64,000 nucleotides of DNA, taken from the NCBI GenBank assembly GCA_027214385.1, contig JAPVXR010000009.1, forward strand, positions 62,001 to 126,000, in the 5' to 3' direction. Within the stretch, counting starts at the first letter, position 1. Every line of letters begins with the position of its first letter. Of the stretch, positions 1,964-10,689 are shown one piece after another. The notes below the pieces were generated by a model. It saw only the letters and a list, made by a program, of their open reading frames with translations. It did not search any database and was not told where the DNA came from. The DNA is from Cryomorphaceae bacterium 1068. Lineage in GTDB: Bacteria; Bacteroidota; Bacteroidia; Flavobacteriales_D; Cryomorphaceae. The position numbers and the translations under genes were made by a program.

Positions 1964-3445
1964 CTATCCGAGATCGGTTTTAATTTTCTTCATGGCGGTC
2001 ATAGCACTTCTCAAATCTTTACCAATAGCTTCAATGGGATGGTTTCGGATGGCAGCGTTCACACGTATAAGCTCAACATTGTCTGCTGCATTTGAGTCTG
2101 AAAAAGACTGACCAATCACTTCAACTTCAATCGATTTCATGAAGTCAACCAACAATGGCTTGCAGGCGTGATCAAATAAATAACAACCATATTCGGCAGT
2201 ATCTGAGATGACTCTGTTCATTTCATAAAGCTTCTTTCTCGCGATGGTATTGGCTATTAACGGCAATTCATGTAAAGATTCGTAATACGCTGATTCCTCA
2301 ATGATACCGGTGCTAACCATCGTTTCAAACGCCAATTCCACACCAGACTTTACGAATGCCACCATAAGAACTCCATGATCAAAATATTCCTGCTCGGGAA
2401 TGGCATCATTGGTGAGCGGAGTTTTCTCAAAAGCGGTTTCCCCGGTTTCAGCCCGCCAGCGCAATAAATCAGCGTCATCATTTGCCCAGTCGGCCATCAT
2501 TGTGGCAGAAAAGTGACCCGAGATGATATCGTCCATATGCTTTTCAAACAATGGCTTAAGTATTTCCTTTAATTCTTCTGAAAGTTGATGTGCTTTAATT
2601 TTCGCAGGATTGGAGAGGCGATCCATCATATTGGTAATGCCTCCTTGCTTAAGAGCCTCTGTTATCGTTTCCCATCCATATTGAATCAGCTTTGCGGCGT
2701 AATTCGCATCAACGCCTTTCTCCACCATTTTATTGAATGCAAGTATAGAGCCTGTTTGAAGTACACCACAAAGAATGGTTTGCTCACCCATTAAATCGCT
2801 CTTTACTTCAGCAACAAAAGATGACTCCAATACACCCGCGCGGTCACCGCCCGTAGCTACAGCATAGGCCTTCGACTGATCCCAGCCTTTTCCTTCTGGA
2901 TCGTTCTCAGGATGAACAGCGATCAAAGTCGGAACCCCAAACCCTCTTTTGTACTCTTCTCTTACTTCGGTACCGGGACATTTTGGCGCGACCATGATAA
3001 CCGTAATATCTTCTCTGATTTTCATCCCCTCTTCAACAATATTGAAACCATGTGAATACGACAAAGTAGCTCCATTCTTCATTAAAGGCATTACCGCCTT
3101 GATAACATCGGTGTGCTGCTTATCAGGTGTAAGGTTGAGAACCAAATCTGCAGTTGGAACCAAATCTTGGTATGTTCCAACTGTAAACCCATTACTAGTG
3201 GCATTCTTAAAGGATGCACGTTTCTCATCAATGGCTGCCTGACGCAATGCATAAGAGATATCCAATCCCGAATCGCGCATATTCAAACCCTGATTGAGGC
3301 CCTGTGCACCACAACCTATGATCACGATCTTCTTCCCGAGCAAGGCTTTAACGCCATCCTCAAATTCTGAAGCGTCCATAAATCGACATTTGCCTAATTG
3401 ATTTAGTTGCTGTCGGAGAGACAGAGTATTGAAGTAGTTTGACAT
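1964..3445 (-). CDS. ilvC: Ketol-acid reductoisomerase, class II (IlvC)
   Basis: 493 residues, the length of the long (class II) KARI of E. coli (491), with the duplicated C-terminal knotted domain. It converts acetolactate or acetohydroxybutyrate to the dihydroxy acid with NADPH and Mg2+. The Rossmann motif [19 protein letters not shown] lies near residue 42, preceded by a class II-type N-terminus. A conserved [17 protein letters not shown] stretch holds active-site residues, and [12 protein letters not shown] supplies metal-binding acidic residues. It is the last gene of ilvD-ilvB-ilvN-ilvC, starting 11 bp after ilvN, so translational coupling is likely. Confidence 0.97.
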
Positions 3446-3456
3446 GGAGATGTGGT

Positions 3457-3984
3457 TTATTTGTTAAATGCTTCGAGCATTTGAGTTATGTTCATTTTTT
3501 CTTTTGACACGGCAATGCGTCCTGATCGGGAAAACTGCATAATACCATAAGTACTGAACTCTTCGAAGAGTCGATCAATTTCTTCCTTCCTACCTGATTT
3601 TTCGACTACAAAGAACTCCCTGTTGACGGTAACAATTCGAGAATTGCTTTCTTTTACAATGTTTTGGATTTGCCGATCCTCAAAAAGCAGGTCAGATTTT
3701 ATCTTGAAGATGCACGACTCCTGATAGATAATCTCATCATCAGTATGGTAGACGGCTTTAATCACTTCAACTTGCTTGGTGATTTGCCCGATGATTTTCT
3801 TCATCTGAGTTTCACTCATCTTGACCACAATGGTAAAACGTGATACGTTTGGTATTTCAGAAATCGATGAGTTGATGCTCTCAATATTGATGTGTCGGCG
3901 CTGAAAAATCGCTGAAATCCGATTGAGTAAACCGATGTTGTTTTCGGTGTAAACCGAAACCGTATATAATATTGTTTCTTCCAT
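3457..3984 (-). CDS. ilvN: Acetolactate synthase small (regulatory) subunit
   Basis: 175 residues with an N-terminal ACT domain (about residues 5-80, containing [19 protein letters not shown]) and a C-terminal ALS regulatory domain. This subunit binds valine in known enzymes and sets feedback inhibition and activity of the catalytic subunit. The ATG at 3984 lies one nucleotide after the ilvB stop codon (3986-3988), so the two subunits are almost certainly co-translated. Length is typical for IlvN/IlvH (about 160-180). The symbol ilvN is used here; ilvH would be equally defensible. Confidence 0.95.
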
Positions 3985-3985
3985 T

Positions 3986-5746
3986 TTAATCGAGTCTGAT
4001 TTCAGAGACAGAAGCTCCTGTTGGAATCATCGGAAAAACGTTGTCTTCTTTTTCCACACAAACTTCCAGGAAATAAGCGTCTTTACTCGCCATCATTTCT
4101 GCTACAGCAGCTTTAAGATCTGCACGTTTTTTTACTCGTTTTGCTTCTATAGCGTAGCCTTTGGCAATGGTCACAAAATCAGGATTGGTCATTTCTGTAG
4201 AACCATAGCGCTTATCGAAAAACAGCTGCTGCCATTGGCGTACCATTCCCAAAAATTCGTTGTTCAAGACCACAATCTTTACCGCGGTTTTCTGCTGAAA
4301 AATGGTACCTAGCTCTTGTATGGTCATTTGATAACCACCATCGCCTATGATGGCCACGACCTCTCGATCAGGCGCGGCCATTTTAGCCCCGATAGCCGCA
4401 GGTAAAGCAAATCCCATCGTTCCTAAACCACCAGAGGTAATGTTGCTTTTGGTCGTGGTGAACTCAGCGTATCGACAGGCAATCATCTGGTGTTGCCCCA
4501 CATCGCTTACTATAGCAGCATCGCCATTTGAGCAACTATTTATCTCTTTGAGAACCTCTCCCATTGTGAGGCCTTCCTTGGTCGGGTTGAGGTCAGAACT
4601 GATTACCTTCTCATATTCGATGGCGTATAGATCTTTGAACTTTTGATGCCACTCCAAGTGCTCATTCTTTTCGAGCAAAGGAATGAGCTTTGTTAATGAC
4701 TCCTTTGCATCACCAACCACGGCGACATCCGTTTTGACATTCTTATCAACCTCTGCAGGGTCAATTTCAAAGTGGATTACTTTGGCTTGTTTGGCATAAG
4801 AGTTCAGATTTCCTGTCACGCGGTCATCGAACCGCATTCCGATCGCAATGAGCACATCACACTCATTTGTCAATACGTTAGGACCGTAATTGCCATGCAT
4901 CCCCACCATTCCTACATTCAATGGGTGAGAAGTGGGAAGCGCCGATGCGCCGAGAATTGTCCACGCTGCAGGTATCCCTGCTTTCTCGACTACCTCTATA
5001 AGTTCTTTTTCTGCTTTACTAAGGATTACGCCTTGTCCCCAAACTATCAGTGGCTTTTTAGCTCCATTAATCAGCTTTGCTGCTTTGGCTATGGCTTCAT
5101 CATCTGATGCAGGTATGGGTGTGTAGCTTCTTACGCCTTTGCATTTCTCGTAAGAAAAATCGAATTCCTCAAACTGAGCATCTTTCGTAATATCAACCAG
5201 CACAGGCCCGGGCCGGCCGCTTTTAGCGATATAAAAGGCTTTTGCCAGGACCTCCGGGATTTCGGATGCCTTGGTGACTTGATGATTCCATTTCGTCACA
5301 GGTGTAGAAATTCCGACGATGTCCGTTTCTTGAAAAGCATCGCTTCCCAAGAGGTGTGATGCTACTTGACCTGTAATACAGACCATTGGAGTAGAGTCAA
5401 TTTGCGCATCCGCAATGCCTGTAATCAAGTTGGTTGCTCCGGGACCTGAGGTAGCCATCGCTACACCTACCTTCCCCGAGATTCGGGCATAGCCTTGAGC
5501 CGCATGAGTAGCACCTTGTTCATGTCGAGTCAAGACGTGATGAATCTTTCCCTGGTACTTGTACAATTCGTCATAGACAGGCATAATCGCCCCTCCGGGG
5601 TAGCCGTATAAAATGTCAACTCCCTCTTCGATCAAACAACGCACAATGGCCTCGCTTCCTGAAATTCGAACCGTTGCTTTCGGCTCTTGCTGATTTTCGG
5701 ATAGAGTCACTTCCTCTATTTCCGTTTGTGAAGCTTCCTTCTTCAT
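3986..5746 (-). CDS. ilvB: Acetolactate synthase large (catalytic) subunit
   Basis: Thiamine diphosphate-dependent enzyme condensing two pyruvates, or pyruvate and 2-oxobutyrate, at the first common step of Val/Leu/Ile synthesis. Visible motifs are HEQGATHAAQGYAR with the catalytic Glu near residue 55, TSGPGATN, an FAD-type central domain, and the ThDP motif GDGGYQMTIQEL followed by NNEFLGMVRQWQ. The frame opens at a TTG (5755), but an ATG three codons later (5746) is the likelier start, giving 586 residues. The first 25 residues are a charged extension before the conserved domain. It lies 39 bp downstream of ilvD. Confidence 0.97.
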   Translation of the reverse strand: MKKEASQTEIEEVTLSENQQEPKATVRISGSEAIVRCLIEEGVDILYGYPGGAIMPVYDELYKYQGKIHHVLTRHEQGATHAAQGYARISGKVGVAMATSGPGATNLITGIADAQIDSTPMVCITGQVASHLLGSDAFQETDIVGISTPVTKWNHQVTKASEIPEVLAKAFYIAKSGRPGPVLVDITKDAQFEEFDFSYEKCKGVRSYTPIPASDDEAIAKAAKLINGAKKPLIVWGQGVILSKAEKELIEVVEKAGIPAAWTILGASALPTSHPLNVGMVGMHGNYGPNVLTNECDVLIAIGMRFDDRVTGNLNSYAKQAKVIHFEIDPAEVDKNVKTDVAVVGDAKESLTKLIPLLEKNEHLEWHQKFKDLYAIEYEKVISSDLNPTKEGLTMGEVLKEINSCSNGDAAIVSDVGQHQMIACRYAEFTTTKSNITSGGLGTMGFALPAAIGAKMAAPDREVVAIIGDGGYQMTIQELGTIFQQKTAVKIVVLNNEFLGMVRQWQQLFFDKRYGSTEMTNPDFVTIAKGYAIEAKRVKKRADLKAAVAEMMASKDAYFLEVCVEKEDNVFPMIPTGASVSEIRLD

Positions 5747-5785
5747 CACTTCCAACTTTTGGTTAGTACTAATAATCGATATTAG

Positions 5786-7465
5786 TTAAAATTCATCTGT
5801 AACGCAACCCTCTGACGCCGAGGAGACTGTTCTGGCGTATTTATATAGCACTCCACGATCAAACTTGAGTTTGGGGGCAACCCATTTTTTCCTTCTTTCT
5901 TCGAGTTCTTCCTCTGACACCTCTAAGTTTATGGTATTGCTATTTGCGTCTAATGAAATAATATCTCCATCTTTCACCAAAGCTATGGCACCTCCTTCTT
6001 GGGCTTCAGGAGTAATATGTCCGACTACAAAGCCGTGCGTGCCACCCGAAAAACGGCCATCGGTAATCAATGCTACTTCTTTTCCCAGGCCGGCACCCAT
6101 AATAGCCGCAGTGGGCTTAAGCATTTCCGGCATACCCGGACCACCCTTAGGACCTTCATAACGAATCACGACAACGTCTCCTTTTTCAACCTTTCCTGCA
6201 CGAATTCCTTCATTGGCATCATATTCTCCTTCAAATACTTTAGCCTTTCCTCTAAAGCTAAGTCCTTCTTTTCCGGTAATTTTTGCAACACTTCCTTTCA
6301 GAGCTAAATTTCCATAAAGCATTTGTAGGTGACCGGAAATTTTGATGGGCTTTTCGATGGGCTTAATCACATCTTGTCCTTCTTCCAAATCAGGTACCTC
6401 AGATAAATTTTCCGCCAAGGTCTTTCCGGTAACTGTCAGACAATCTCCATGTAGCAACCCTTTTCCCAGTAGGTACTTCAGTACGGCAGGAATTCCTCCA
6501 ACGGCATGAACATCCTCCATTAAATATTTTCCACTTGGCTTTAAGTCTGCCAAAAACGGTGTACTGTCACTCACATCTTGAAAATCTTTGAGTGTAAATT
6601 CAATTTGCGCGGAGCGAGCTATCGCTAAAAAGTGAAGCACTGCATTGGTAGAACCTCCCAAAATAGTCACCAATCTAATAGCATTCTCCAAAGATTTTCG
6701 AGTGATGATATCGAGTGGTTTAATGTCTATCTCCAGCAATAATCGCATGGCTTCACCTGCTCTTATAGACTCTTCTCTTTTTTCCTCGCTCAGTGCAGGA
6801 TTAGAAGAATTGTAAGGCAGGGCCATTCCCAAAGCTTCAATAGCAGAGGCCATCGTATTTGCGGTGTACATCCCGCCGCAAGCTCCTGCTCCGGGACAAG
6901 CTTTTTCAACAATGCATTGAAATTCTTTCTCGGTCATGGTTCCAGCTACTTTGCTACCCCATGCCTCAAATGCAGATACCACATCCAGTTTCTTTCCTTT
7001 ATATGAGCCTGAGTCTATCGTGCCGCCATAGACCAAAATACTCGGACGATTTAAACGAATCATAGCTAATAAAGCACCAGGCATATTCTTATCGCAACCA
7101 ACAACGGTAATCAGTCCGTCATAGCTCATTGCTTGAACAACGGTCTCCATCGAATCGGCGATAACATCTCTTGACGGCAAAGAATATCGCATTCCCGGTG
7201 TTCCCATAGAAATCCCGTCACTCACTCCGATTGTATTGAAAATAAGCCCTGTAGTGTCTTCATTCAGCGTTCCTTGCTTTACCAATTTCGCTAAGTCATT
7301 CAAATGCATATTACATGGATTGCCTTCATAACCTGTGCTGGCTATACCGATCATCGGCTTCTTCAAGTCTTCCCTCGTTAATCCAATGGCGTGAAGCATG
7401 GCTTGCGCCGCGGGCTGAGTAGGGTCCTGAGTAACAGTTTTACTGTATTTATTCAATTCTTTCAT
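5786..7465 (-). CDS. ilvD: Dihydroxy-acid dehydratase
   Basis: 559 residues, typical for IlvD, which dehydrates dihydroxy acids to the 2-oxo acids of Val and Ile synthesis using an Fe-S cluster. Candidate cluster ligands are visible in [18 protein letters not shown] and [16 protein letters not shown]. The conserved C-terminal [19 protein letters not shown] segment is intact. It is the first gene of the ilv operon. A TATCTTTG box 51 bp upstream is the probable promoter. I looked for a leader peptide rich in Ile/Leu/Val codons in the short 5' region and found none, so regulation is not evident from sequence. Confidence 0.97.
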
Positions 7466-7570: not shown

Positions 7571-7598
7571 ATCAAGAAAATACCACATCAGAATGTGG
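7571..7598 (-). terminator. Possible weak terminator of the Kelch protein gene
   Basis: CCACAT (7583-7588) and ATGTGG (7593-7598) form a 6 bp stem with a 4 nt loop that overlaps the stop codon at 7588-7590. On the minus strand the stem is followed by a moderately T-rich TATTTTCTTG. It would separate the Kelch gene from ilvD. The stem is short, so confidence is low. Confidence 0.35.
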
Positions 7599-8898
7599 AT
7601 ATTTTAAAATTAGCAAAACTTCCCCCTCTACCTTCAGCTTGCTGTATAGCAAGTAAATAAATCCCGTGGGGCAGAGACGACATTGAAATGGAATGGCTTC
7701 CACCTAAGAGGATTCTGTTCAAAACGAGTCGGCCCGAGATATCAAATAGATTCATTTGGTAACTCCCTTCAGGCAAAGCTTCAATGGTAAGTCGATCTGC
7801 ACTGCTGTATACTTTCAATCCCGGAATACCTTGATTCTCTGTATCGACAGTAGCTCTGTGAATTCTGTAAACGGCACCCGTCACTTGAGCATTTGTGGTC
7901 ATTCCACCGGCTATGATCCACTCGTCATCCGACACTCTAGCGATTCCCCTTAAGTCCATAATAGCGAATGGTGAGTTCTCGAAAATTGCCCAAGTATTTG
8001 CAATAGCATCGTAAGTTCTGATTTCTTGGTGCGGTTGAACCACAGCACCTCCGGAGTATGCCAGTCCATCGAAATTATAAGCTGTCTCTGCACCTCCTAT
8101 CCAAATCACTTCGTCTCCGAAAGAAGTGCAAGCCATACGGTAGCCGTCAGGCAGATTTATATCAGGCTCCAAAGACCAAAGTATATCCGTAGGGTCCTCA
8201 GGATTGATAATACCTTTCCTGAACTCATTGGACGCAATGAAGTTGAATCCCGAAATCTTTGTTCCTCCGTAGTAATAAATCGTATCTCCGATAATAGTTC
8301 CTGAAGCTCCAAAGGCCTCAAAAGTATTTGAGTTTGGTGTGGAGGTTGCAGCAGTCCATGTGTCATTGGTAGGATCATAGATCTGAACATCATTCACATT
8401 TGTGTTTTGGCTCCAGCCTGTAATCACGTAGATAAGGCTATCACGCCAAACTGCTTGAACATGATCGTCAACCGGAACAGGAATATCAGCCCCATCCTCT
8501 AACCAAACATTGGCATCGGCATCAAAGCGATGAACCTTTTCAGAAGTCTGCTCGCTGAAATTTGGAAAAACGTGATACCCTCCGATCAGATAAATGATAT
8601 TATTCACAGTAGATGCTCCTGCAGCTATCTTTCCTTGAAAGTCATCCACATCGGGAAGTTGTGTCCATTCATCTAAAATGTAGTTGTAACGCCAAGATTT
8701 CAGATGAATGTCTTCTGGCTCCAACCCTTCTGAAATTCCTGTAAAGCTGTATACACAAAGCGTATCTCCTGCGAAAGCTTCAACAACTGAATTATTGGAA
8801 ACGGGTTCAGGCATTGACGGTAGGACATCCCAGTCCCACCCACCTTGGGAAAAACCCAATAAAGGCATTAAAGCAAAAAGTATCAATGGTCGTTTCAT
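7588..8898 (-). CDS. Secreted Kelch-repeat protein with T9SS type A sorting domain
   Basis: 436 residues. Residues 1-18 are a signal peptide (cut near GFSQ). Residues about 25-350 contain repeated Kelch-like blades with GG doublets followed by Tyr and Trp (for example YLIGGYHVF, YYYGGTK, WIGGAETAYNF, WIIAGGM), expected to form a beta-propeller. The last ~75 residues (ISGRLVLNRI, LPHGIYLLAI) match the Por secretion tail used by the type IX secretion system, so the protein should be exported to the surface or medium. Binding partner and function are unknown. It is upstream of ilvD on the same strand but probably transcribed separately. Confidence 0.88.
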   Translation of the reverse strand: MKRPLILFALMPLLGFSQGGWDWDVLPSMPEPVSNNSVVEAFAGDTLCVYSFTGISEGLEPEDIHLKSWRYNYILDEWTQLPDVDDFQGKIAAGASTVNNIIYLIGGYHVFPNFSEQTSEKVHRFDADANVWLEDGADIPVPVDDHVQAVWRDSLIYVITGWSQNTNVNDVQIYDPTNDTWTAATSTPNSNTFEAFGASGTIIGDTIYYYGGTKISGFNFIASNEFRKGIINPEDPTDILWSLEPDINLPDGYRMACTSFGDEVIWIGGAETAYNFDGLAYSGGAVVQPHQEIRTYDAIANTWAIFENSPFAIMDLRGIARVSDDEWIIAGGMTTNAQVTGAVYRIHRATVDTENQGIPGLKVYSSADRLTIEALPEGSYQMNLFDISGRLVLNRILLGGSHSISMSSLPHGIYLLAIQQAEGRGGSFANFKISTF

Positions 8899-8991: not shown

Positions 8992-9021
8992 TTGAATATT
9001 GAGTAAAAGGTAATAGATTTA
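8992..9021 (+). promoter_or_regulatory. Predicted promoter of the phhA leader
   Basis: TTG at 8992-8994 and TAGATTTA at 9014-9021 are separated by 19 bp, the typical Bacteroidota -33/-7 spacing. The -7 box has one mismatch (final A for G). The predicted transcript start falls on or next to the ATG at 9026 of the leader peptide, so that peptide would be translated from a leaderless mRNA. Confidence 0.55.
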
Positions 9022-9025
9022 ACAC

Positions 9026-9082
9026 ATGATTTTGAGCCCGACGTATTATTACAGCCCGCTCCCTATCGGGTTTATGCAGTAA
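9026..9082 (+). CDS. Putative Tyr-rich leader peptide of the phhA attenuator
   Basis: An 18-codon ORF reading MILSPTYYYSPLPIGFMQ, stop TAA at 9080-9082. Codons 7-9 (9044-9052) are three consecutive Tyr codons (TAT TAT TAC) and there is a Phe at codon 16. The ORF sits between a predicted promoter and a terminator hairpin directly upstream of phhA, which is the arrangement of a ribosome-stalling leader peptide. It is too short for standard gene prediction. Translation is unproven; the case rests on the Tyr run, position and alternative RNA structures (see the attenuator entry). Confidence 0.6.
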   Translation: MILSPTYYYSPLPIGFMQ

Positions 9083-9133
9083 GTGTGTCAAAATAACTTA
9101 TTCGATCCGATTCTATTTGAGTCGGGTTTTTTT
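9055..9133 (+). promoter_or_regulatory. Predicted transcription attenuator upstream of phhA
   Basis: Terminator: CCGATTC (9107-9113) pairs with GAGTCGG (9119-9125), including one G-U pair, then G and seven T (9127-9133). Antiterminator: ATCGGGTT (9065-9072) can pair with GATCCGAT (9104-9111), 8 bp with two G-U pairs, and this destroys the 5' arm of the terminator. Protector: CCCG (9055-9058) can pair with CGGG (9067-9070) and sequester the antiterminator. A ribosome stalled at Tyr codons 9044-9052 would cover CCCG and free 9065-9072, allowing readthrough. A ribosome that reaches the stop codon would mask 9065-9072 and allow termination. Pairings are directly visible; the mechanism is inference from classical attenuators. 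Confidence 0.6.
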
Positions 9134-9147
9134 ATATCCAAAAATTG

Positions 9148-9888
9148 ATGAATCAGAATTACAGGAAGTACACGGCAGAAGATTTTAAGGTATGGGAAAC
9201 CCTCTTTGAGAGGCAAATGGAGATTCTACCTGAGCTGGCCTCTCAATCGTATTTGGAAGCAGTAGATGTGGTCAAATTCAAGAGTGATAAAATTCCCGAC
9301 TTCCAAGAGGTAAATGCCATTCTGAAAGAAGAATCGGGCTGGCAGCTGAAAGTAGTACCGAATATTATTCCCAATGAAGAGTTCTTTCCTCTCTTGTCAA
9401 ATCAGACCTTCAGCGCAACGACTTGGCTCCGAAAAATGTCACAACTCGACTACCTGGACGAACCTGATATGTTTCATGATGTTTTCGGTCATGTACCACT
9501 TTTGAGTAATCCTACTTTCTGCGCATTCTTCAAAGGACTGGCGGAGATCGCAATGAAATATATTGATGACTCTAAGGCAATTGAGATGCTTGGAAGAATG
9601 TATTGGTTTACCATAGAGTTTGGCTTAATCAGAGAAAATGGCTCCCTCAAAATATACGGCGCGGGAATACTTTCCTCCCATGGAGAAACAAAATTCAGTC
9701 TTTCAGACGAACCTGAACATCTCGAGTTTGACGTAGCAGCTGTACTCGAGCAAGACTACGACAATATGAAAATTCAGGACAAGTATTTTGTCATTGAAAG
9801 CTTTGATCAATTGTTTCAAAGTTTAGATAAAATTGAAGAATATGTGCAGTCAAAAGTTGAGACGCCCATTCAAAACCCAGTCGCCTAA
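9148..9888 (+). CDS. phhA: Aromatic amino acid hydroxylase (phenylalanine 4-monooxygenase)
   Basis: 246 residues counted from ATG 9148 (a TTG directly before it is in frame but unnecessary). This is the single-domain bacterial form lacking the ACT domain of animal enzymes. The iron site is intact: FHDVFGHVPL supplies H110 and H115 and FTIEFGL supplies E157. The enzyme hydroxylates Phe to Tyr with a tetrahydropterin and O2. No pterin-recycling genes (phhB) or homogentisate-pathway genes are adjacent, although a FAH-family gene lies far away at 58.3 kb. The predicted Tyr-responsive leader upstream suggests a role in making Tyr rather than degrading Phe. Tyr or Trp hydroxylase specificity cannot be excluded from sequence. 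Confidence 0.93.
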   Translation: MNQNYRKYTAEDFKVWETLFERQMEILPELASQSYLEAVDVVKFKSDKIPDFQEVNAILKEESGWQLKVVPNIIPNEEFFPLLSNQTFSATTWLRKMSQLDYLDEPDMFHDVFGHVPLLSNPTFCAFFKGLAEIAMKYIDDSKAIEMLGRMYWFTIEFGLIRENGSLKIYGAGILSSHGETKFSLSDEPEHLEFDVAAVLEQDYDNMKIQDKYFVIESFDQLFQSLDKIEEYVQSKVETPIQNPVA

Positions 9889-9957: not shown

Positions 9958-10689
9958 ATGCTTAAAATGAAACACTTCTTTACCCTGATTTTGATTGCCC
10001 TTTCAGCAGTTGCTACCGCACAAGTTGACGACAGAACAGAAACCAATTGCGACGGAAACATGCGCAGTATCTATCAAGTCGGAGATGAAGGTTTACCATT
10101 AATCGTTGCTTCAAAAGGATTTGACTGCTCTATTTGCATTAGTCAAGCAGACGATGTGAAAGAATTTGCAGATGCCAATGAAGGTATTGTCGAGATTTGG
10201 GGGGCTATGACTTTTCTAAATCCTTCTTCCACTCCTACTTGTGGAAATGTCGCAGAATGGAACAGCACTCACTCTTGGGGAGAGACTATTTTTTCATTTG
10301 CTGATGTAGATGAGTTTTGGTTTGTAGGAGGTACTCCGAGGTACTATGTCATACATCCATCTACTCGTGAAATTGTTTACCAAGGATCTAGTTTCTCAAC
10401 TGCATCAACAACAGCCTTGGGTTTAGGAACTACTAATACTGATAATGCCATTGATGATGGAGATTTTCAAGTATATCAAAGAAACACAGGACTTGTCGTT
10501 AAAAAGCCTGCAACCCTTTCGGGTGAATTAAGAATATTCAATATCGTAGGTCAGGAAGTATTTTCAACCATTCTAAATTCAGAAACGGAGCAATCAATAT
10601 TAGATTTTGCACCTAGCGAGGGAGTCTACATCTCCAGCTTTTATTCTGAAGGGCTTCAATTGAGTACTAAGTTTATTTTCAAAAATTGA
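9958..10689 (+). CDS. Secreted thioredoxin-fold protein with T9SS type A sorting domain
   Basis: 243 residues with a signal peptide (residues 1-21). Residues about 40-160 look like a thioredoxin/redoxin fold: a CxxC motif at C57-S-I-C60 and GGTPRYYVIHPSTREIVYQG near residue 124, which resembles the cis-Pro loop and following strand of redoxins. The last ~70 residues (LRIFNIVGQEVFST, EGVYISSFYSEG) are a T9SS type A tail, so the redox domain would be exported. Its substrate is unknown. An ATG three codons downstream is an alternative start. A TACATTTA box at 9944-9951 could be its promoter, ending 7 nt before the start. Confidence 0.8.
   Translation: MLKMKHFFTLILIALSAVATAQVDDRTETNCDGNMRSIYQVGDEGLPLIVASKGFDCSICISQADDVKEFADANEGIVEIWGAMTFLNPSSTPTCGNVAEWNSTHSWGETIFSFADVDEFWFVGGTPRYYVIHPSTREIVYQGSSFSTASTTALGLGTTNTDNAIDDGDFQVYQRNTGLVVKKPATLSGELRIFNIVGQEVFSTILNSETEQSILDFAPSEGVYISSFYSEGLQLSTKFIFKN

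Follow-up and report, generated by a model that had tools for sequence, protein, structure and literature searches.

The phhA locus and its leader region

The window analysed here is a 64,000-nucleotide stretch of the genome of Cryomorphaceae bacterium 1068, and it carries the phhA gene for phenylalanine 4-monooxygenase (phenylalanine hydroxylase, PAH) on its forward strand (Table 1). Curated-family scores place the predicted protein in the phenylalanine 4-hydroxylase family, above the cut-off of NF008877 (E 7.5e-85, 284 bits; cut-off 247) and level with that of TIGR01267 (264.7 bits; cut-off 264.75). The ATG at 9148 is most likely the start codon, and the TTG at 9145 is the start of the mechanically called ORF. 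The gene upstream (7588-8898) is on the opposite strand, and phhA must therefore have its own promoter. The next gene downstream in the window, at 9958, encodes a T9SS-sorted protein and not pterin-4a-carbinolamine dehydratase. The ilvD-ilvB-ilvN-ilvC operon for branched-chain amino acids (1964-7465, minus strand) adjoins phhA; the sequence directly upstream of ilvD in the window showed no obvious leader ORF of the Leu/Ile/Val type followed by a terminator.

Table 1. Coordinates of phhA and of its leader features in the window
Feature	Position	Strand	Description
Promoter (predicted)	8992-9021	+	-33 TTG at 8992-8994, 19 nt, -7 box TAGATTTA at 9014-9021
Leader ORF	9026-9082	+	18 codons, MILSPTYYYSPLPIGFMQ; ATG 9026, TAA 9080-9082
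Regulatory codons	9044-9052	+	TAT TAT TAC (Tyr-Tyr-Tyr), from sequence reading
Segment 1	9033-9041	+	1:2 protector helix with 9066-9074, 9 bp, -13.1 kcal/mol
Segment 2	9065-9074	+	Antiterminator strand in the 3' part of the leader ORF; two partners
Antiterminator extension (possible)	9078-9102	+	9078-9084 with 9096-9102, from nascent-RNA fold with stalled ribosome
Segment 3	9104-9113	+	Terminator 5' arm, target of segment 2; from sequence and comparative pairing
Intrinsic terminator	9104-9133	+	3:4 hairpin 9104-9128, then U tract to 9133
phhA, phenylalanine 4-monooxygenase	9148-9888	+	246 aa from ATG 9148; NCBIfam profile scores

A preliminary description of this DNA had proposed a tyrosine attenuator upstream of phhA. 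Reading of the sequence confirmed the coordinates that it gave for an 18-codon ORF containing TAT TAT TAC, and also the terminator that ends 15 nt before phhA, which has a stem of 10 bp, a 5-nt loop and an energy of -13.2 kcal/mol. The 8 bp alternative pairing that it described between 9065-9072 and 9104-9111 is likewise present (two G-U pairs, -9.4 kcal/mol). The small protector hairpin of the same description (9055-9058 with 9067-9070) exists as a 4-bp helix but is weak (-4.9), and a far better pairing had been overlooked, in which 9066-9074 of segment 2 pairs with segment 1. Segment 1 lies 5' of the Tyr codons, the place expected for it in a classical attenuator. The region thus holds, as trp-type attenuators do, a short leader ORF that contains consecutive regulatory codons, and an intrinsic terminator between this ORF and the gene.

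In the window alone, neither of the two competing pairings reached significance on its own (p = 0.13 and 0.14, composition-preserving segment shuffles), and the fold energy of the whole leader region, no better than that of shuffles (z -0.92), was uninformative. The single-sequence case for an attenuator is suggestive only. Rfam covariance models for T-boxes and other cis-regulators had no match at the gathering score, either in the window or in eight relatives; three sub-threshold matches were to unrelated sRNAs and were set aside as chance matches.

Conservation of the leader in relatives

The comparison covered the regions upstream of 149 phhA genes in Flavobacteriales and Cytophagales; about 70 came from a draw of 399 Flavobacteriales genomes and the remainder were loci of named genomes, mostly Cytophagales, after removal of a Cryomorpha duplicate. 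The nearest relative was Cryomorpha ignava, at 67% identity. Leaders were detected by a mechanical rule that called a short ATG ORF with clustered Tyr codons followed by a hairpin and a T run; the strict form of the rule required three Tyr within seven codons. A Tyr-run leader with a terminator was found upstream of phhA in 72 of the 149 regions under the loose rule and in 68 under the strict one, and in dinucleotide shuffles in 4/720 and 2/720, respectively. Applied to the 57 large ORFs of the window, the detector called phhA and none of the 56 others. In relatives, Tyr run, short ORF and terminator therefore occur together far more often than chance allows, and this set went undetected in about half of the 149 phhA genes examined.

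The leader occurs, among other genera, in Cryomorpha, Marivirga, Roseivirga, Fulvivirga, Microscilla, Echinicola, Algoriphagus, Litoribacter and Hymenobacter, and 10 of the 11 Echinicola genomes carry it (VKYYSYYYHF and variants). At least three Tyr were present in 65 of 68 non-redundant leaders, the length of the Tyr run varied from 1 to 7, and the distance from the leader stop codon to the start of the terminator was confined to 17-42 nt. By inspection, without a formal conservation score, no residue outside the Tyr cluster was common to the leaders. This indicates that it is the codons that matter, and not the peptide. Several leaders of Cyclobacteriaceae (L097, L100, L104, L123 and L187-L196, from Algoriphagus and Echinicola) have His codons mixed with the Tyr codons (YHSYYYH, HHSYYH).

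Covariation of the competing helices and modelled switching

To compare pairing within and between species, we calculated duplex energies for the 68 non-redundant leaders with cognate segments and with segments exchanged between species (2000 permutations). The antiterminator, formed by the 3' part of the leader and the 5' arm of the terminator, was more stable with cognate segments (-12.2) than with swapped ones (-9.4; z -9.5), as was the 1:2 helix between the Tyr region and the stop region (-9.4 against -7.1; z -8.2). The arms of the terminator, which served as a positive control, gave z -21.6. In none of these three comparisons did a permutation reach the cognate value (0/2000 each), counts which are not formal probabilities since the species in the set are related. 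For unrelated upstream segments, the negative controls, z was -1.0 and -0.8. Shuffling one partner with its composition preserved led to the same result, with combined Fisher values of 3.5e-26 for the antiterminator and 1.6e-18 for the 1:2 helix and 0.075 for the negative control. Since pairing is stronger within a leader than between leaders of different species, the 1:2, 2:3 and 3:4 helices change together between species, the signature of selection on pairing. The check that the preliminary description had named for its reading thus came out in its favour: the Tyr run, the terminator and the antiterminator and protector helices are kept in relatives, with sequences that change yet stay complementary.

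We then modelled switching by folding the nascent RNA before the 3' arm of the terminator is made, with ribosome footprints blocked out. In these folds the 5' arm of the terminator was sequestered on average to 70% with a ribosome at the Tyr codons, to 32% with a ribosome at the stop codon and to 39% in naked RNA. The shift was in the expected direction in 58 of 67 leaders and in the opposite direction in none, which together with the comparative energies marks 9033-9041:9066-9074 as the protector. When segment 2 was scrambled, modelled sequestration in the stalled state dropped to 46%. For the window leader, the stalled state is predicted to form an extended antiterminator that is abolished in the stop state. 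One weakness is that in free RNA of the window leader the terminator is not clearly favoured.

Promoter geometry and the start of the leader ORF

No Shine-Dalgarno sequence is apparent for the leader ORF, and the phylum Bacteroidota is largely without Shine-Dalgarno-driven initiation. In 47 of 72 leaders the ATG is preceded, at 4-9 nt and mostly at 4-5 nt, by a perfect TAnnTTTG box, compared with a rate of 1.7% at random positions of the same regions (counted within 3-8 nt). The window's -7 box, TAGATTTA, has one mismatch to this consensus, the missing final G. In Flavobacterium psychrophilum, the TAnnTTTG box is located at -12 to -5, and leaderless mRNAs are reported as a minority of 5.5% (PMC9723704). 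By analogy with this box position, transcription would start at about 9026, with the AUG of the leader at +1 or a few nucleotides from it. The leader ORF is therefore probably leaderless or nearly so, its AUG lying at or close to the 5' end of the transcript. Such near-leaderless ORFs would offer a clean system for studies of attenuation in Bacteroidota.

Amino acid specificity of phhA and pheA leaders

The phhA leaders contain 17% Tyr and 4% Phe. The pheA gene of the same genome, which encodes prephenate dehydratase and lies outside the window (G000:C6:44569-45390, locus L173), is preceded by a Phe-rich leader, MSKPTNFYSRFCFYFSQ, and a terminator. Most of the relatives examined likewise have a Phe or Phe/Tyr leader in front of pheA, which in L179 is dominated by Phe, MTQNFNFFFFSFFHKCD; where tyrA is in the operon (L172, L182) the leaders are mixed (NFYFYFFW). 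Since pheA leaders are Phe-rich and phhA leaders Tyr-rich, each attenuator appears to read the product of the gene it controls, and for phhA this product is Tyr, from the assignment to the PAH family. A Tyr leader was looked for upstream of the tyrA gene of the window genome and not found, which suggests that PAH, and not TyrA, is the Tyr-responsive branch in this organism.

Routes to tyrosine in leader-bearing genomes

In bacteria, annotation usually makes phenylalanine hydroxylase the opening step of phenylalanine degradation, and animals use the enzyme to make tyrosine. We surveyed the alternative route through prephenate dehydrogenase (TyrA) by six-frame search. With weak hits set aside, TyrA was detected in 13 of the 399 Flavobacteriales genomes, and an independent TyrA profile agreed where applied. 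Weak PDH_N matches (E 1e-4 to 1e-7) occurred in many genomes; those that were opened proved to be ProC, and the rest were not counted. Among the 43 leader-bearing Flavobacteriales genomes, TyrA was recognisable only in the window genome and was not found in the other 42, although in draft genomes such absence is not proof. PAH is thus usually the sole visible route to tyrosine where the leader is present. In the window genome both tyrA and pheA are present, and phhA is one of two tyrosine routes. The view of the preliminary description that PAH would be the cell's tyrosine source is accordingly too strong for this genome and fits the other 42 better.

Prephenate dehydratase was found in some leader-bearing genomes and not in others (six-frame search of drafts, in which absence is not proof), so that some would make Phe and others must import it. 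The PAH route requires oxygen, and this may be the reason that some genomes keep TyrA too. Echinicola vietnamensis has both enzymes, and mutation of either one costs fitness, though not in the same defined media; the authors of that study proposed that both routes make tyrosine (PMC7311316). From its genus, we infer that E. vietnamensis itself carries the leader.

Mutual exclusion of TyrA and PhhA across the order was considered and is unsupported, because most of the drawn genomes show neither. Many of these Flavobacteriales also lack prephenate dehydratase in the six-frame search, and those without all three enzymes would be aromatic amino acid auxotrophs.

Proposed mechanism and alternative explanations

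On the evidence of the sequences, phhA is very probably controlled by tyrosine supply through a trp-type, ribosome-mediated attenuator that senses Tyr-tRNA. RNA polymerase would start at about 9026, and a ribosome would load at the extreme 5' end of the transcript. When charged Tyr-tRNA is scarce, this ribosome is expected to stall on the three Tyr codons and mask segment 1, and segment 2, thus freed, would bind the terminator's 5' arm, which would keep the terminator from forming and let phhA be transcribed. When Tyr-tRNA is plentiful, the ribosome would reach the stop codon and mask segment 2; the terminator would then form and end transcription about 15 nt before phhA. PAH would in this way be regulated as a tyrosine-making enzyme that converts Phe to Tyr.

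The p values of about 0.13 for the competing pairings in the window, and a region that folds like its shuffles, would also be expected if the hairpin served to end a neighbouring transcript and the Tyr ORF were a product of chance. The upstream gene is on the opposite strand, however, leaving no upstream transcript to terminate, and conservation and covariation in relatives refute this explanation, which we regard as extremely improbable. Only slightly less remote is sensing by the leader peptide itself, in which free tyrosine or some other ligand would arrest the nascent chain in the manner of TnaC or Erm peptides and the charging of Tyr-tRNA would not be the signal. The peptide is short and Tyr-rich, and arrest peptides also stall at fixed codons. 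They keep specific residues besides the stall codon, though, whereas the phhA leader peptides are unconserved beyond the Tyr run, and a run that varies from 1 to 7 Tyr is what codon sensing predicts.

If the switch served catabolism of Phe and Tyr, from PAH to HPPD and homogentisate, the Tyr attenuator would be product feedback against an overflow of tyrosine. All 56 phhA-positive genomes that were tested contain the tyrosine-degrading HPPD, 55 of them with a score above the cut-off, and PAH can therefore also feed catabolism, which weakens a purely anabolic reading. Even so, switching PAH off when tyrosine is plentiful has the wrong sign for a degradative route, nearly all phhA-bearing genomes lack TyrA, PAH matters to E. 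vietnamensis in some defined media (PMC7311316), and the logic of the attenuator is the same as that of pheA in the window genome. A catabolic role for the switch thus seems unlikely to us, and control of PAH as a biosynthetic enzyme is the reading that we prefer.

Relation to known regulatory systems

The phhA leader resembles the enterobacterial trp, his and pheA attenuators in its run of regulatory codons within a leader ORF, its mutually exclusive 1:2, 2:3 and 3:4 helices, its U-tract terminator just upstream of the gene, and a regulatory amino acid that is the product of the enzyme. Unlike them, it precedes a gene for phenylalanine hydroxylase and not for an enzyme of the chorismate branch, it uses Tyr codons only, and it lacks an apparent Shine-Dalgarno sequence, with an AUG apparently near +1 behind the TAnnTTTG box of Bacteroidota. 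Closer at hand, the pheA leaders of the same and related genomes share its architecture and order and its phylum, with a short ORF, a terminator and similar spacing, but they are Phe or mixed Phe/Tyr leaders (FYFYFFW where tyrA is in the operon), whereas those of phhA are dominated by Tyr. The study of F. psychrophilum describes a structured element 5' of pheA and leader-peptide clues upstream of amino acid operons, with pheA named (PMC9723704). Putative attenuators upstream of tyrA operons, taken from the Merino database and including pheA>hisHb>aroA-aroQ>tyrA of Bacteroides thetaiotaomicron (PMC1173090), also tie attenuation to tyrosine synthesis, but they sit on the prephenate route and the phhA leader does not. 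The same article assigns phhA to a catabolic module, which in some Gammaproteobacteria is under PhhR, and reviews phhABC of Pseudomonas aeruginosa, where PhhR and sigma-54 control Phe/Tyr catabolism (PMC1173090). There the same enzyme is controlled by an activator protein, with the opposite physiological sign.

In the literature searched on phhA or phenylalanine hydroxylase, attenuation, leader peptides and Bacteroidetes, we met no account of a Tyr attenuator on phhA, although the F. psychrophilum study may list one without remark among its structured 5' regions (PMC9723704). The mechanism is classical; its target, phhA, is probably new and would reassign the physiological role of the enzyme, and leader ORFs that are probably leaderless would be an unusual feature. 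An attenuator that answers tyrosine shortage, widespread in Flavobacteriales and Cytophagales, would by regulation alone say that these bacteria use PAH to make tyrosine. It would explain the supply of tyrosine in many genomes that lack prephenate dehydrogenase, given oxygen and phenylalanine, it could aid the annotation of pathway gaps, and it agrees with the E. vietnamensis fitness data (PMC7311316). Whether PAH serves across Bacteroidota as a regulated tyrosine-biosynthetic enzyme, in many genomes the sole one, under a Tyr-tRNA attenuator on a leader ORF with a 5'-terminal AUG and no UTR, we consider evenly balanced. If true, this would mean an animal-like, oxygen-dependent supply of tyrosine in the phylum, and a kind of attenuation in which initiation is tied directly to the end of the transcript.

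Variation in gene arrangement

All 22 phhA-bearing genomes that were tested encode pterin-4a-carbinolamine dehydratase, the enzyme that recycles the PAH cofactor, and in roughly half of them its gene is adjacent to phhA. This gene lies directly 3' of phhA in G108, G126, G129, G186, G199, G217, G235, G277 and G348. Where the leader is present and the dehydratase gene follows phhA, the two genes probably form a phhA-phhB operon under the attenuator. In two leaders from one genus (L042 and L053, of G217 and G108), the Tyr-rich ORF and the terminator are found about 240-280 nt upstream of phhA, and the extra sequence between leader and gene is possibly a repeat insertion.
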